DNA from: Promethearchaeia archaeon
GTDB taxonomy: Archaea; Asgardarchaeota; Lokiarchaeia; Sigyniarchaeales; SOKP01
Direction: 5' to 3'
NCBI GenBank assembly: GCA_029856295.1
Contig: JAHQWS010000204.1
Coordinates: 1 to 32,488, forward strand
DNA length: 32,488 nucleotides
Shown here: piece by piece, positions 9,155-27,420 of the stretch
Numbering within the stretch: the first letter of the stretch is position 1
How the letters are laid out: each line of letters begins with the position of its first letter
Position numbers and translations under genes: made by a program
The notes under the pieces: model-generated
Database searches by the model: none
What the model was told of the DNA's origin: nothing
Seen by the model: only the letters and a program-made list of their open reading frames with translations

Positions 9155-9844
9155 ATGATCATTAAAGAATTCAATATACCTGATATAAAATTGAAGTATT
9201 TTGTAGGTATTAATCAAGTCTCAATCGATTTAACAAAATTGTTAGATCAAAATAAATTAGAAAATCAAGCTCAAGTGTTAGATGTTATTTTCGATGTAAT
9301 TGAAAAAGTTCAAAACACATTTAAAGGGTCCATGATTCAATTTTTTTCTCATGAGTATGTTTTAGACCAGAGTCATATTTTTAATGCCTTCTATTATATG
9401 GAAAAAGCATTTCTTAATAATCTAAATATCTCAAATAAAAAAAATATCGAATTGCTGTTGTATTTAGCTACTAATCGGCAGATAAAAATTGGTATTGAAG
9501 CTTTTGGTATTAAATATTTAGATGTGAAAAAAGGAGAATTGCTTTATTGTATCATATCACGTGAGAATAGTGTACGTGAAATAAATGAAGAGATTTTACA
9601 TCTACTTCAAGCTAAAGAATTACCATTAAATCTGAACAACAGGTCTTTTGATAAATTTGACAGAATTAAAACTTTTTTTGAGATAACAGATAACCAGATT
9701 ATAACTGTATTAAAATCTTATGGAGTTAGTAATATTAACAAAGATCCAATAAGTTACAAGCTTGAAGATCTCTATGTAGCTTTAAATGATTTAATTTGTG
9801 AAAAAATGACATTGCTTAGTTTGGAAAAAATCAAACTTGATTAA
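9155..9844 (+). CDS. cgi121: KEOPS subunit Cgi121-like protein
   Basis: IQFFSHEYVLDQSHIFNAFYYMEKAFLNNLNISNKKNIELLLYLATNRQIKIGIEAFGI resembles the Cgi121 core; next to Sua5/YrdC. Confidence 0.65.
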   Translation: MIIKEFNIPDIKLKYFVGINQVSIDLTKLLDQNKLENQAQVLDVIFDVIEKVQNTFKGSMIQFFSHEYVLDQSHIFNAFYYMEKAFLNNLNISNKKNIELLLYLATNRQIKIGIEAFGIKYLDVKKGELLYCIISRENSVREINEEILHLLQAKELPLNLNNRSFDKFDRIKTFFEITDNQIITVLKSYGVSNINKDPISYKLEDLYVALNDLICEKMTLLSLEKIKLD

Positions 9845-10371
9845 TCAACATAATTCTCACTTTTTAACCTAAGAATCTCATCAGGTTTAAGAAAAGTTAT
9901 ACCGCAAAAATTTCCTAAAAGTTCTATACGTATAATTTTATCCGGATTCTCAAGATTCACCTGATTCTCAATATTGTTAGCAACATATTTGATAAGACGT
10001 TCCCTCTCAATAATATCATTATTTCTACGCTTTAAATCAATTTTAAATGTGTCAGTTTTATCAATAAATTCCGAATAATGATTCTCCACAATTTGGGTTA
10101 TACTTTTAAGATTTGTTTCACACACAAAATCAATAGGTACAATTTTGAGGATAAATTTGAGGAAATCGGGGTCTTTCTTTAGAATTTCTTTAATTTTTTG
10201 AATTATGATTTTTGCATCAATATTAGATAAAGCAGTTAATAAACCTAAGAATTCTAAATTTGAAATAATGGGATATTTATCACCAGTAATGAATAATGTA
10301 AACCATAACTCAGCTCTTGCGTTAGTTTCGTTATATCTTGATGTCGATACTAATAAATTGAAGTTCTTCGC
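9841..10371 (-). CDS. THUMP-domain (Tan1-like) tRNA modification protein with no canonical start codon
   Basis: My translation of the open frame: AKNFNLLVSTSRYNETNARAELWFTLFITGDKYPIIS...FLKIVPIDFVCETNLKSITQIVENHYSEFIDKTDTFKIDLKRRNNDIIERERLIKYVANNI...RIELLGNFCGITFLKPDEILRLK. The track reports only 94 aa (9841..10125). In-frame TAA at 10372-10374; AGGTGA ribosome-binding site just upstream. Confidence 0.7.
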   Translation of the reverse strand, partial: AKNFNLLVSTSRYNETNARAELWFTLFITGDKYPIISNLEFLGLLTALSNIDAKIIIQKIKEILKKDPDFLKFILKIVPIDFVCETNLKSITQIVENHYSEFIDKTDTFKIDLKRRNNDIIERERLIKYVANNIENQVNLENPDKIIRIELLGNFCGITFLKPDEILRLKSENYVD

Positions 10372-10407
10372 TTAAATCACCTAAAAAACTTGGTAAAATC
10401 TAATTTC

Positions 10408-11061
10408 TCATAAAACACTTCTAATTTCTTCTTCAGAAATTTTTCCAATTCGCAAGAATTTCACTTCTTCAGACGTGCTATCTACAATTGTAGTAGGAAT
10501 CTGAGATTGTGAATTTCCAGAATCTATAATATAATCTATAGTCCCGAGGAATTTTTTTGCAACTTCAGCCCCGCTAATTGAAGGAGGCTCCCCAGAATAA
10601 TTGGCGGAAGTTCCTATTATCCCTCCAAATTGCCCTCTTTGTTTCAGAATTTCTAATATCTTCAATATAACTTTACTTTCCGGTACTCTTAGTCCTATTG
10701 TATCTTGGAACGCAGTTACCTCTAAAGGAATTATATTTGGCTCTTTTCTTTTCAAGATCAATGTCAATTGGCCTGGCCAAAAATGGGTCGCTAATCTTTT
10801 AGCGGTACTGTTAAATTCTGCGATTTTAGATGCTTCTTCAAAATCAGAAACCAATAACAAAAAACCCTTCGAGCGTTCACGGAATTTTATATCATATATT
10901 CTTTCTAATAAGCTAAGATTTAAAGGGTCTCCTCCTAACCCATATACGGAATTGGTGGGGAAGCCTATTAACTTTCCTGCCATTACCCACTCTACCGCAG
11001 TTTCAAGGAACATTTCTGTATCCATATCTAAATTTCCAGATAATTTAACTAAGAAACCCAT
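10408..11061 (-). CDS. L-threonylcarbamoyladenylate synthase (Sua5/YciO/YrdC)
   Basis: GKLIGFPTNSVYGLGGDPLN..RIYDIKFRERSKGFLLLVSDFEEA..FWPGQLTLILKRK..IGLRVPES..GIIGTSANYSGEPP. Confidence 0.92.
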   Translation of the reverse strand: MGFLVKLSGNLDMDTEMFLETAVEWVMAGKLIGFPTNSVYGLGGDPLNLSLLERIYDIKFRERSKGFLLLVSDFEEASKIAEFNSTAKRLATHFWPGQLTLILKRKEPNIIPLEVTAFQDTIGLRVPESKVILKILEILKQRGQFGGIIGTSANYSGEPPSISGAEVAKKFLGTIDYIIDSGNSQSQIPTTIVDSTSEEVKFLRIGKISEEEIRSVL

Positions 11062-15377: not shown

Positions 15378-16587
15378 ATGACCATTAAAAAAGTTGGAAT
15401 TTTAACGGGTGGCGGAGTCATGTTAAAGGATTTCTTTAGCTGCCGTATACTGCCCGGGTTTAAACAGCGTAATATATGGCATTATGTTGAAAGCTTTCGA
15501 TGCCGGTGTTGAGTGTGTCGGTATTAAAAAAGGATGGAAAGGATTTTTAGAAAACTTGACCATTCCCCTCAATATTGCAGAACACGATGATCTCCATACT
15601 ATAGGAGGAACTCTCTTATATACCAGTAGAACCAATCCTTTTAAAGGAGTTGATTCTAAAGAAGAAAAATCAAAAGAGTTAGGAAAAAAATTTGATGATC
15701 TCGGCATTGATGCTCTAATCGCGATTGGTGGAGATTTAAAATGGTTTCCATTTTAAACTAAAAACGATACCCTCGGAGTCGCGGATGCTTTATATAAATA
15801 TGCAAATGCTAAGGTCGTTGGATGTCCAAAGACGATTGATAACGATTTAGCTGGCACCCATTATACTTTCGGATTTTGGAGTGCCGTTCAACTAGCATCA
15901 AATGCCATGGACAATCTTACAACCACGGCTAGATCCCATCAAAGAGTCTTTATTGTCGAGATAATGGGACGAGATGCCGGATTTTTAACAATGTACAGTG
16001 GAATCTCTTCAGGAGCAGATATTATTCTTATACCAGAAACACCATTCGATTTTGAGAGAGATCTTGTAGGCGTGCTAAAAAAAAGAGCAAATGCCGGTCA
16101 TAAATATCATATGATTGCGTGCTCTGAAGGGGCCTATCCCGATCAAGCATCACTTAAGCGAGACTTTAAGACTATAACCCAGGAGACCATTGATAAATTA
16201 CCAAAAGATGTCTTCGGAAATCCAATGTTACCCGCATTGAATATTTCAAACATATTAGTAAAGGAGTTAAATCTAAGAGATGATTTAAAAGAAGTTTTCA
16301 AGAAAAATGGAGTCGATTTTGAATGCCGTAGTGTAGTGCTGGGTCATACTATGAGAGCGGGAACACCCAATTCTTTTGATAGAATATTAGGACTTAGATT
16401 CGGTTTAGCAGCTATGAAACTCGTGCTTGATGGGGAATTCGGAAAAATGGTTTCCCTCCAAGGTACTGATATTACCACTTTTCCGCTTGAAGAGGGGGTA
16501 AATAAGAAATATATCAAGCCCGAAAGCGATAAATTAGAACTTAGGGATTTAATGGTTAAAATAAGGTATAAATCAAGAGAAAATTAA
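15378..16587 (+). CDS. pfk: 6-phosphofructokinase, PPi-type signature, interrupted by two mini-introns: join(15378..15417,15449..15733,15764..16587), 382 aa
   Basis: Spliced product [46 protein letters not shown]...[46 protein letters not shown]...VEIMGRDAGFLTMYSG...VVLGHTMRAGTPNSFDRILGLRFG. Exons total 1149 nt (383 codons with stop). Start ATG 15378 has an AGGTGA ribosome-binding site. ORF track splits it into 15484..15756 and 15907..16587. Confidence 0.88.
15418..15448 (+). other. Predicted 31-nt BHB (archaeal splicing-endonuclease type) intron 1 in pfk
   Basis: Parsed: CGGGTG GCGG AG^T CATGTTAAAG (GATTT) CTTTAGCTG CCGT AT^A CTGCCCG. Central helix GCGG/CCGT is 4 bp with one G.U; inner helix 9 bp with one bulged U; outer helix 6 bp with one bulged U. 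Cuts give GGA G|AC TGC = G-D-C. Confidence 0.8.
15734..15763 (+). other. Predicted 30-nt BHB intron 2 in pfk
   Basis: Parsed: ATTG GTGG AG^A TTTAAAATGG (TTT) CCATTTTAAA CTAA AA^A CGAT. Inner helix is a perfect 10 bp; central GTGG/CTAA pairs at 3 of 4; outer ATTG/CGAT 4 bp with one G.U. Cuts give GGA G|AC GAT ACC = G-D-D-T. Unspliced frame meets TAA. Confidence 0.7.
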
Positions 16588-22244: not shown

Positions 22245-22958
22245 TTGCAAAATGAATTTATTTTAGCCAAATACTTATGTAATATAATGACAGATTTTTT
22301 TATGGTATATACAGAAACACCCTGGGATAATCTAAATACAAATCAGCTAGCCCAGATAAGAATCCTCTCTTTAAAAAGCATTTTTAAGTCATTTCCCGTT
22401 ATTGAACCCTCATTTTTTGATGATTTGAATTCCAAAATTATTGAGTATAATCATTATATGTGGGCTCAGAGCATTAAGAGGATTATTGGACCCAAAAACG
22501 AGGATTATGAAATAGCTAACTGGAATTTTGTGTGGGCGTTTGATAATCAGAGAAGGATGTTTCAATTCTTGTTTCAGAAAGTTGAAGAGCAAGGTATTTT
22601 AGTAGGATTAGCTCCACCAGAATTATCAAAACTATTTTCTGAGCATGGAAAAGGGGCAATATTACGAACTCTCTCTATAATAACGAATCCCTCAAAAATT
22701 AAATTCTTAATGGTCCTAGGTCCCAGAGGGAAATCAATTGTCGAGGGGCAACAACTTTTTCAAGCAGATAAAAATTATCTCGAAAAATTAAATTATCTAA
22801 GAACTTTAAAAGATGTCCCTAATATCCAAGGAGCCTGGTATCCTTCCTTTGACCCTAGGTGTCCTGTTTGTAATTCATTTATGTCAGAAATAAAGGATTA
22901 TAAGGTTGGAGTCAGTAAATTAGTATGTCCTCAATGTGGGTATGAGAAAACGAAATAA
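22245..22958 (+). CDS. Hypothetical protein with C-terminal zinc ribbon, next to the methyltransferase
   Basis: Intact ORF 5 nt after the methyltransferase stop; CPVCNSFMSEIKDYKVGVSKLVCPQCG. Confidence 0.7.
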   Translation: MQNEFILAKYLCNIMTDFFMVYTETPWDNLNTNQLAQIRILSLKSIFKSFPVIEPSFFDDLNSKIIEYNHYMWAQSIKRIIGPKNEDYEIANWNFVWAFDNQRRMFQFLFQKVEEQGILVGLAPPELSKLFSEHGKGAILRTLSIITNPSKIKFLMVLGPRGKSIVEGQQLFQADKNYLEKLNYLRTLKDVPNIQGAWYPSFDPRCPVCNSFMSEIKDYKVGVSKLVCPQCGYEKTK

Positions 22959-25516: not shown

Positions 25517-27037
25517 ATGCCCTCTAAAATTGGTACTATTTTTAATTTTAATCAATTACCAGATGTATCAAAATTTCCCTTTGTTATTAGTAAAAGGAGA
25601 GATAGAGTTTTAGTAAAAAAGGGATTATTTGTGTATACTAAATCAAGTGAGGGTTATTTAATAGGTATAATTGAAAGAATATTAATATTAAATGAATATT
25701 TTTCTGATGCTTTGACTATAAAGTCATATAATAGTAATAATAATCCAAATATATTAAAGGGCTTATTTCCAAGTGAAGACTTTGAATTTGTCACGGCTAT
25801 TGTGAAATGTTTAGGGATAATCCATTTTATAAACGGAAATAATAAGGAGATTAAAACAATTAAAAGAATGTCATATCCCGCAAATCCGGGAGCTGATGTT
25901 TATTTATTAGAAGAAGAGATTTTTAACCAATTCATAGGACTCGATATTAAACGGGGATTACATTTAGGAAATATAAAAGTTTCAAATTTTGACGCAAAAA
26001 TAAACGTGGACCGCTTATTAAATAAGCATTTTGCTATTCTATCAATTTCCGGAGGGGGAAAAAGTTATCTCACATCAATTCTCATAGAAGAATTATTGAC
26101 AAGAGATATGTCCTATGGGAATCCTGCTATAATTTTAATTGATGTTCACGGAGAATATTTATACTTGAAAGATCTACCTAAGATTCAAGATAAGGTGAAA
26201 ATACAGGATATTTCTTATTTTCAAATTTCTGTACCTAATTTAAATGCATGGTGGTTCAGAAAGTATCAGGATCAGATCTCCAATGTTCAGATTAGAGAAC
26301 TTTCTAAATACATTCAAAAACTGAAAAACGATAAAGGGAGAAATGGGAATTACACTTTGCAAGATATTATTGATTATATTGAAAACGAATCTGAGGGTGG
26401 TAAAAGTACTAAACAAGCATTAATTGGCTGGTTATCTGATTTAAATCGACTGACATTATTTGGACCTCAAGAAAACCCATTCATTGCCAATATAGTTAAT
26501 CAAAATCAAATTACGATATTTAACCTTGCAAATGAGATTAGTATAAGAAAAAAACAAATTATTGTCGATTATCTTTGTAATCGATTATTTTATCTAAGGA
26601 GAACCGATAATATTCCCCCTTTCTTATTAATAATGGAAGAGGCTCACCAATTCTGCCCTGAGGCAGCACATTCCAAAGCAATATCTAAATCCATAATAGA
26701 AACTATCGCCAGAGAGGGTAGAAAGTTTATGGCATGCTTATGTTTAATTTCGCAACGACCAAAGAAATTGAGTGCCACTGTTTTATCTCAATTGAATTCA
26801 AAAATGGTTTTGAACATAAAAAATCCATACGATTTAAAACATTTAATGGATAGCTCCGAAGCAATATCTAAAGAGTATGCCGATATGATTTCGAGTTTAG
26901 GAGTAGGTGAGATGCTATTGATCGGAAATGCGGTTAATTACCCTATCTTCATCGATATCAGAGAAAGAAAGTTTAAATCGAAGATTGAAGACCTTTCACT
27001 TACAGATGTTTGCTTAAAATGGGAAAAAACAAGCTAA
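25517..27037 (+). CDS. HerA-like ATPase/helicase
   Basis: Walker A AILSISGGGKSYLTS, IILIDVHGEY, LIMEEAHQFCPEAA, IETIAREGRKFMACLCLISQRPKKLSATVLSQLNSKMVLNI. Confidence 0.88.
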   Translation: MPSKIGTIFNFNQLPDVSKFPFVISKRRDRVLVKKGLFVYTKSSEGYLIGIIERILILNEYFSDALTIKSYNSNNNPNILKGLFPSEDFEFVTAIVKCLGIIHFINGNNKEIKTIKRMSYPANPGADVYLLEEEIFNQFIGLDIKRGLHLGNIKVSNFDAKINVDRLLNKHFAILSISGGGKSYLTSILIEELLTRDMSYGNPAIILIDVHGEYLYLKDLPKIQDKVKIQDISYFQISVPNLNAWWFRKYQDQISNVQIRELSKYIQKLKNDKGRNGNYTLQDIIDYIENESEGGKSTKQALIGWLSDLNRLTLFGPQENPFIANIVNQNQITIFNLANEISIRKKQIIVDYLCNRLFYLRRTDNIPPFLLIMEEAHQFCPEAAHSKAISKSIIETIAREGRKFMACLCLISQRPKKLSATVLSQLNSKMVLNIKNPYDLKHLMDSSEAISKEYADMISSLGVGEMLLIGNAVNYPIFIDIRERKFKSKIEDLSLTDVCLKWEKTS

Positions 27038-27306
27038 AGTAGGTCTTCCATTAATTTACTACTAATCTTTTCATTGTGTTTATTGAGAACGATCATCTTT
27101 TTATTCTTAGAAACTCTGAATACATTTATAATATTCATAGATTCTAATTTCATAAAGGTTTCTTCTAAATACAATGAATTGACAAAAGGAAATTCTTTTT
27201 TAAGTAATTCTTCCATTCTCTTATCCATTACCTCTCCTTTATTTCTTACAAGGATATCAATTATTGAGTTTAAAATCGGTTTTTGATTCCAACGATGTGC
27301 TTCTAT
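27034..27306 (-). CDS. Small putative winged-helix-like protein, possibly starting at a non-canonical ATA codon
   Basis: Open frame KLIEAHRWNQKPILNSIIDILVRNKGEVMDKRMEELLKKEFPFVNSLYLEETFMKLESMNIINVFRVSKNKKMIVLNKHNEKISSKLMEDLL. The first ATG (27228) would remove the N-terminal third. AAGGTGA plus 6 nt precedes ATA at 27304-27306. Confidence 0.45.
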   Translation of the reverse strand: MEAHRWNQKPILNSIIDILVRNKGEVMDKRMEELLKKEFPFVNSLYLEETFMKLESMNIINVFRVSKNKKMIVLNKHNEKISSKLMEDLL

Positions 27307-27420
27307 AAGTTTTCACCTTATTGTTTTAATTTTTTAGGTTTTTTATAATTTATTAGTCAAAAAAAAAGAAAATTCAAGTTATCACGATTAATATTTTCTT
27401 TATAATTAATATTTTTAATA

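Follow-up and report, generated by a model that had tools for sequence, protein, structure and literature searches.

A probable GCG start codon in a Tan1-like gene of a Lokiarchaeon, and near-cognate starts among its relatives

How does translation begin on a conserved gene that has no canonical start codon (ATG, GTG or TTG) where its protein begins? The question is raised by a gene for a THUMP/Tan1-like protein in the window, i.e. the 32,488 nucleotides (nt) of DNA analysed here (JAHQWS010000204.1, positions 1 to 32,488), which are part of contig C205 of a 337-contig Lokiarchaeon assembly (GCA_029856295.1; called G000 below, where other genomes also carry our numbers). An earlier sequence-only reading had noticed the missing start and offered two explanations for it, either a non-AUG start 5-8 nt after an AGGTGA motif or a cryptic intron of 40 nt; its coordinates around the start were all correct on re-check. 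The features concerned are the following.

9841..10371, minus strand: THUMP/Tan1-like gene, of the tRNA acetylation adaptor family; 176 codons plus stop (PF02926, E=1.9e-11)
10369..10371, minus strand: GCG codon at which translation of this gene is inferred to begin; the start slot of the orthologues, GCG also in the nearest relative, G001
10372..10374, minus strand: in-frame TAA immediately 5' of GCG, also present in congeners
10376..10382, minus strand: Shine-Dalgarno (SD) sequence AGGTGAT, of which AGGTGA (10382-10377) ends 5 nt before GCG
10408..11061, minus strand: sua5 (threonylcarbamoyladenylate synthase; PF01300, E=3.6e-47), directly upstream; used as an ATG-start control

On the minus strand the TAA (10374-10372) is followed by GCG (10371-10369) and then by AAG AAC TTC. 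The sua5 stop codon TGA (10410-10408) overlaps an ATG (10411-10409), and the sequence between this TGA and GCG AAG AAC TTC is AGAAATTAGATTTTACCAAGTTTTTTAGGTGATTTAA. In the window no in-frame ATG, GTG or TTG occurs between the TAA and codon 83, which is the first such codon of the open reading frame (ORF), and the sole upstream in-frame GTG (10380-10378) is separated from the ORF by the TAA. The claim that the gene has no canonical start was thus borne out: no canonical codon of an unspliced and unedited mRNA could open a protein with the conserved N-terminus. From the comparisons below, we consider it very likely that initiation is directed by the SD to GCG, as an extreme case of near-cognate starts.

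The start slot across the family

We searched 65 genomes of the same Lokiarchaeal family and found an orthologue in 60; the comparison rests on the 58 of these in which the N-terminus could be read. The start position is identical across all 58, one codon before (K/N/R)NFNLL, so that the comparison with orthologues, to which the sequence-only reading had looked for the true start, leads to a single slot, occupied by GCG in the window. The codons found there are ATG (20, including two genomes with the ATG one codon upstream), TTG (18), ACG (9), ATT (4), GTG (3), GCG (2), CTG (1) and ATA (1), i.e. 41 canonical codons and 17 others. On a tree built from the Tan1 and Sua5 proteins, the slot codon changed at least 19 times and passed between the canonical and non-canonical classes at least 10 times.

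GCG is common to the window genome and to G001 (Candidatus Lokiarchaeota archaeon LW40_45, GenBank JAHPZA010000001.1), another species with an independent assembly and 85% protein identity, in which AGGTGA and its spacing to GCG are also kept. In place of the TTTAA GCG of the window, three congeners (G002, G003 and G004) read TTTAA GTG, from which one T-to-C change is enough to derive the window codon. An in-frame TAA also stands directly before ACG in G012, G060 and G064, and before ATA in G059. A base error hiding a normal start, which the earlier reading had named as a case that would overturn it, was considered and rejected: because GCG recurs in the independent assembly of G001 and three further congeners share the TAA in front of the slot, neither sequencing error nor chance accounts for the arrangement.

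The protein itself is under selection. Between G000 and G001, both with GCG, the non-synonymous (dN) and synonymous (dS) divergences of the gene are 0.076 and 0.587 (dN/dS 0.13), which argues that it was alive after the codon change; codons 2-31 show nine synonymous changes and no non-synonymous one, and purifying selection acts from codon 2 onwards. As GCG makes up only 12.5% of the alanine codons of G001, its presence in both species is unlike that of a free alanine codon. Most simply, the GCG slot would be older than the split between G000 and G001, and the protein would have been kept since.

The energy of the SD duplex was calculated with an anti-SD taken from the general archaeal 16S end. 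It was -5 kcal/mol or lower in all 17 orthologues with a non-canonical slot, with a median of -8.3 kcal/mol for these versus -6.0 for the ATG orthologues (p=0.005, genomes treated as independent). For Sua5, which starts at ATG in nearly all genomes, it was -1.5, the same as at random positions. The natural leader of the P. abyssi aEF1A mRNA, used in work on the initiation factor aIF1, has GGAGGUGAUUUAA before AUG (PMC6237735), and AGGTGATTTAA before the GCG of the window has the same SD and spacer. What differs is the codon: archaeal SD-led initiation is described on AUG, GUG and UUG, the only archaeal start codons named in the available part of an initiation review (PMC6237735; PMC7531240), and here GCG takes the place of AUG.

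The orthologues thus strongly support a non-AUG start after AGGTGA, as had been proposed, and narrow it to GCG. With an unspliced mRNA and a correct sequence, AGGTGA(T) would position the ribosome, and the initiator Met-tRNA(CAU) would start on GCG in the P site, where the first codon base would form a G-U pair (as on GUG), the second a C-A mismatch (as on ACG) and the third a normal G-C pair. Having arisen from the GTG of the congeners by the one T-to-C change, GCG would then have been kept in two species. Methionine would presumably be inserted at GCG, with a low or modest output.

Several points weigh against this reading. GCG is two bases away from AUG and lies outside the one-base definition of a near-cognate codon, within which the ACG, ATT, ATA and CTG of the orthologues fall. 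A start at an upstream GTG is strictly excluded only in the window genome, G001 having an in-frame GTG three codons upstream. The initiator tRNA was searched for and not identified, and the anti-SD used may not be that of this genome, whose own 16S 3' end was searched for and not recovered. Finally, the literature searched, in which most subscription papers were not included, yielded no description of GCG as a natural start codon.

Other explanations of the missing start

C-to-U editing of the mRNA, as for start codons in plant organelles, would turn GCG into GUG and the ACG of the relatives into AUG, and 11 of the 17 non-canonical slots are NCG codons, which editing would make AUG or GUG. However, the same slot is also ATT (four genomes), ATA or CTG, and the IscU and aIF1 genes (see below) use ATT, ATA and ATC, all outside the reach of such editing, whereas tolerant initiation accounts for all slot codons by one mechanism. 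An editing enzyme did not turn up, though no search was aimed at one. On balance editing is very improbable, and equally slight is the chance of an upstream start, be it GTG 10380 or one from sua5, with the TAA passed by readthrough or frameshifting. The latter route could draw on G001, where the frame GTG AGA GAA GCG is open, and on G012, where sua5 and the Tan1-like gene share one frame with a TAA between them. Yet GTG 10380 forms part of the SD and lacks one of its own, four of five congeners retain the TAA, the protein is constrained from codon 2 onwards, and the frame of sua5 relative to the Tan1-like gene varies among relatives.

Loss of the start, leaving a dying gene or a protein that begins further in, with codon 2 (AAG) or codon 83, is hardly credible. 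GCG is indeed no accepted start codon and the AAG of the window genome counts as near-cognate, but the dN/dS between the two GCG species indicates that the gene outlived the codon change, codon 2 is AAA in G001, and a start at codon 83 would cost almost half of the protein.

Least credible of all is the 40-nt intron (10408..10369), whose removal would join the ATG at 10411 to AAG AAC TTC: four central pairs of a bulge-helix-bulge (BHB) structure can be drawn in the window, but this pairing (TTTA/TAAG) is broken in G001 (TTTA/GAAG), which has the same GCG, no more than 1-2 pairs form in the outer and inner helices, among 425 BHB-like placements within 200 nt this one ranks 91st, relatives with ATG, GTG or TTG at the slot need no intron, and an intron-less ATG AAG join at the sua5 overlap is seen in no relative, the start being at the slot instead. 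As the BHB scan was a rough one, which also failed to pick out the phosphofructokinase introns described next, the weight against the 40-nt intron rests on the comparison with relatives.

BHB introns of the cbf5 type are found in archaeal mRNAs, and real short introns likewise occur in the phosphofructokinase gene of the window (15379-16587, plus strand), which made the earlier premise of other introns nearby a reasonable one. Two stretches of about 30 nt are inserted in this gene, one behind GGCGGAG and one behind GGTGGAG, which are exactly absent in G001, G027 and G012; both are present in G011 and G076, the first in G003 and the second in G019. Judged by this distribution, they are lineage-variable archaeal mRNA introns. 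The Tan1-like leader differs from such cases in having no conserved BHB.

Neighbouring genes and near-cognate starts in the family

The window gene is predicted to encode a Tan1/THUMPD1-like adaptor for tRNA acetylation. Tan1/THUMPD1 is the partner of Kre33/NAT10 in the formation of N4-acetylcytidine in tRNA (PMC9957541), and the window protein resembles it in being a THUMP protein that stands alone, in having the expected size (176 aa) and in carrying THUMP at its C-terminal end: PF02926 is the only domain matched (residues 86-159 of 176), and there is no catalytic domain. Nothing published on the start codon of the Tan1/THUMPD1 gene was found in the literature searched. The 3' end of the gene has a 4-nt tail-to-tail overlap with a CGI-121-like (KEOPS) gene (9155-9844, plus strand), which together with the THUMP/Tan1-like gene and sua5 makes a small tRNA-modification gene cluster. 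Elsewhere in the assembly, about 25 tRNA genes are densely arrayed on both strands (G000:C308:5286-8170), unlike in G001, possibly in a mobile element or a contaminant contig.

In syntenic stretches of 20 kb from 20 genomes, nearly all gene families start at a canonical codon: the start of Sua5 is ATG in 21 of 21 cases, and those of PorB, HerA and FEN1 are all canonical where the genes are complete. The window nevertheless contains a second gene with a conserved non-canonical start.

27037..27312, minus strand: gene for an unknown protein of about 90 aa; its start slot here is ATA, preceded by AGGTGA and by a TGA in frame

In 15 genomes its start slot is ATC (7), ATA (4), ATT (1), TTA (1) or ATG (2), i.e. 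ATC, ATA or ATT in 12 of 15, and in the relatives too it is preceded by AGGTGA and usually by an in-frame TGA; a domain search with the protein returned no known domain. The start of another window gene (22245-22958, plus strand) is likely about 14 codons downstream of its first TTG, where ATG or GTG is conserved in relatives. Isolated candidates were also noted in genes that start canonically elsewhere, namely the PorD gene of G012 (ATT; L124) and an MFS gene of G059 (ATA; L114).

Genomes were then scanned for ORFs of at least 100 aa that have an SD close to the stop codon upstream and whose first 12 codons include no canonical one. In G001 (793 kb scanned), 11 of 628 ORFs of that length were of this kind, and near-cognates at the right distance from the SD were enriched (9 of 21 versus 2.4 expected, p=2.6e-4); the corresponding figures for G064 (800 kb scanned) were 5 of 16 versus 1.8 expected (p=0.03). 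A widespread case is the scaffold protein IscU/NifU, the N-terminus of which (MYSEKVM) is to our knowledge universal: among 30 genomes its start is ATT in 19, ATG in 7, ATA in 3 and ATC in 1, with a median SD energy of -7.4 for the non-canonical starts versus -4.0 for ATG (p=1e-4, genomes again treated as independent). The genomes in which iscU has ATG show weak SD sites (loci L175-L204; G001:C9:291523-291672).

A non-canonical start peculiar to Tan1, which we initially favoured as sua5 starts with ATG, was ruled out by IscU, by aIF1 and by the gene at 27037-27312. On the best reading of these genomes, Lokiarchaea would start a few percent of their genes, mostly SD-led, at near-cognate codons (AUU, AUA, AUC, ACG and CUG). 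The literature searched held no prior report of near-cognate starts in archaea or in Asgard members, nor of an aIF1 gene with AUU.

aIF1 and the choice of start codon

The factor aIF1 (SUI1) serves to reject wrong start codons. In the 39 genomes of the family where it is readable, the start of its own gene is ATT in 32, ATA in 6 and ATC in 1, and never canonical; between the upstream stop and the CxxC finger, 31 of the 39 have no canonical codon in frame. The aIF1 gene of the window genome (G000:C337:8109-8321, locus L255) starts at ATT. Other Asgard families have ATG or GTG at this position, some ATA or CTG. The leader AAGGTTGTGA of aIF1 is conserved in most genomes of the family, and GGTTGT in it could pair with ACGAC after the start as a candidate hairpin.

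In S. solfataricus, aIF1 is reported to destabilise complexes formed on non-AUG mRNA (PMC6237735). In bacteria, start codons outside AUG, GUG and UUG are found in infC, the gene for IF3 (AUU in E. coli, ATC in Streptomyces), and in sigR (GTC in Streptomyces), and infC is autoregulated via its AUU start (PMC5472188). These are, as here, conserved genes with such a start codon, and their translation responds to an initiation fidelity factor, as it may in the present genes; in infC, as in Lokiarchaeal aIF1, it is the fidelity factor's own gene that starts at AUU. The parallel has its limits: infC belongs to bacteria and IF3 has no homology to aIF1, whereas the present case is archaeal, involves several genes, one of them with GCG, and is read from genome sequences. 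Taken together, the destabilising effect of aIF1 on non-AUG mRNA and the autoregulation of infC make an aIF1 loop plausible. By this analogy aIF1, with its own gene starting at AUU, may set the efficiency of near-cognate starts. In a fuller version, Lokiarchaeal aIF1 would limit itself via AUU, and its stringency would also tune a set of genes with near-cognate starts, among them iscU and the Tan1-like gene, the latter with a true GCG start as the extreme; this is a tentative proposal, to which we give somewhat less than an even chance.

For annotation, the consequence is that gene finders limited to ATG, GTG and TTG will miss or truncate genes with near-cognate starts. The aIF1 case is directly testable, and would be an independent counterpart of the classic IF3/infC loop. 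The fixation of GCG in two species, together with iscU at AUU and aIF1 at AUU, AUA or AUC, suggests a looser, perhaps regulated, choice of start codon, which would concern the archaea closest to eukaryotes.
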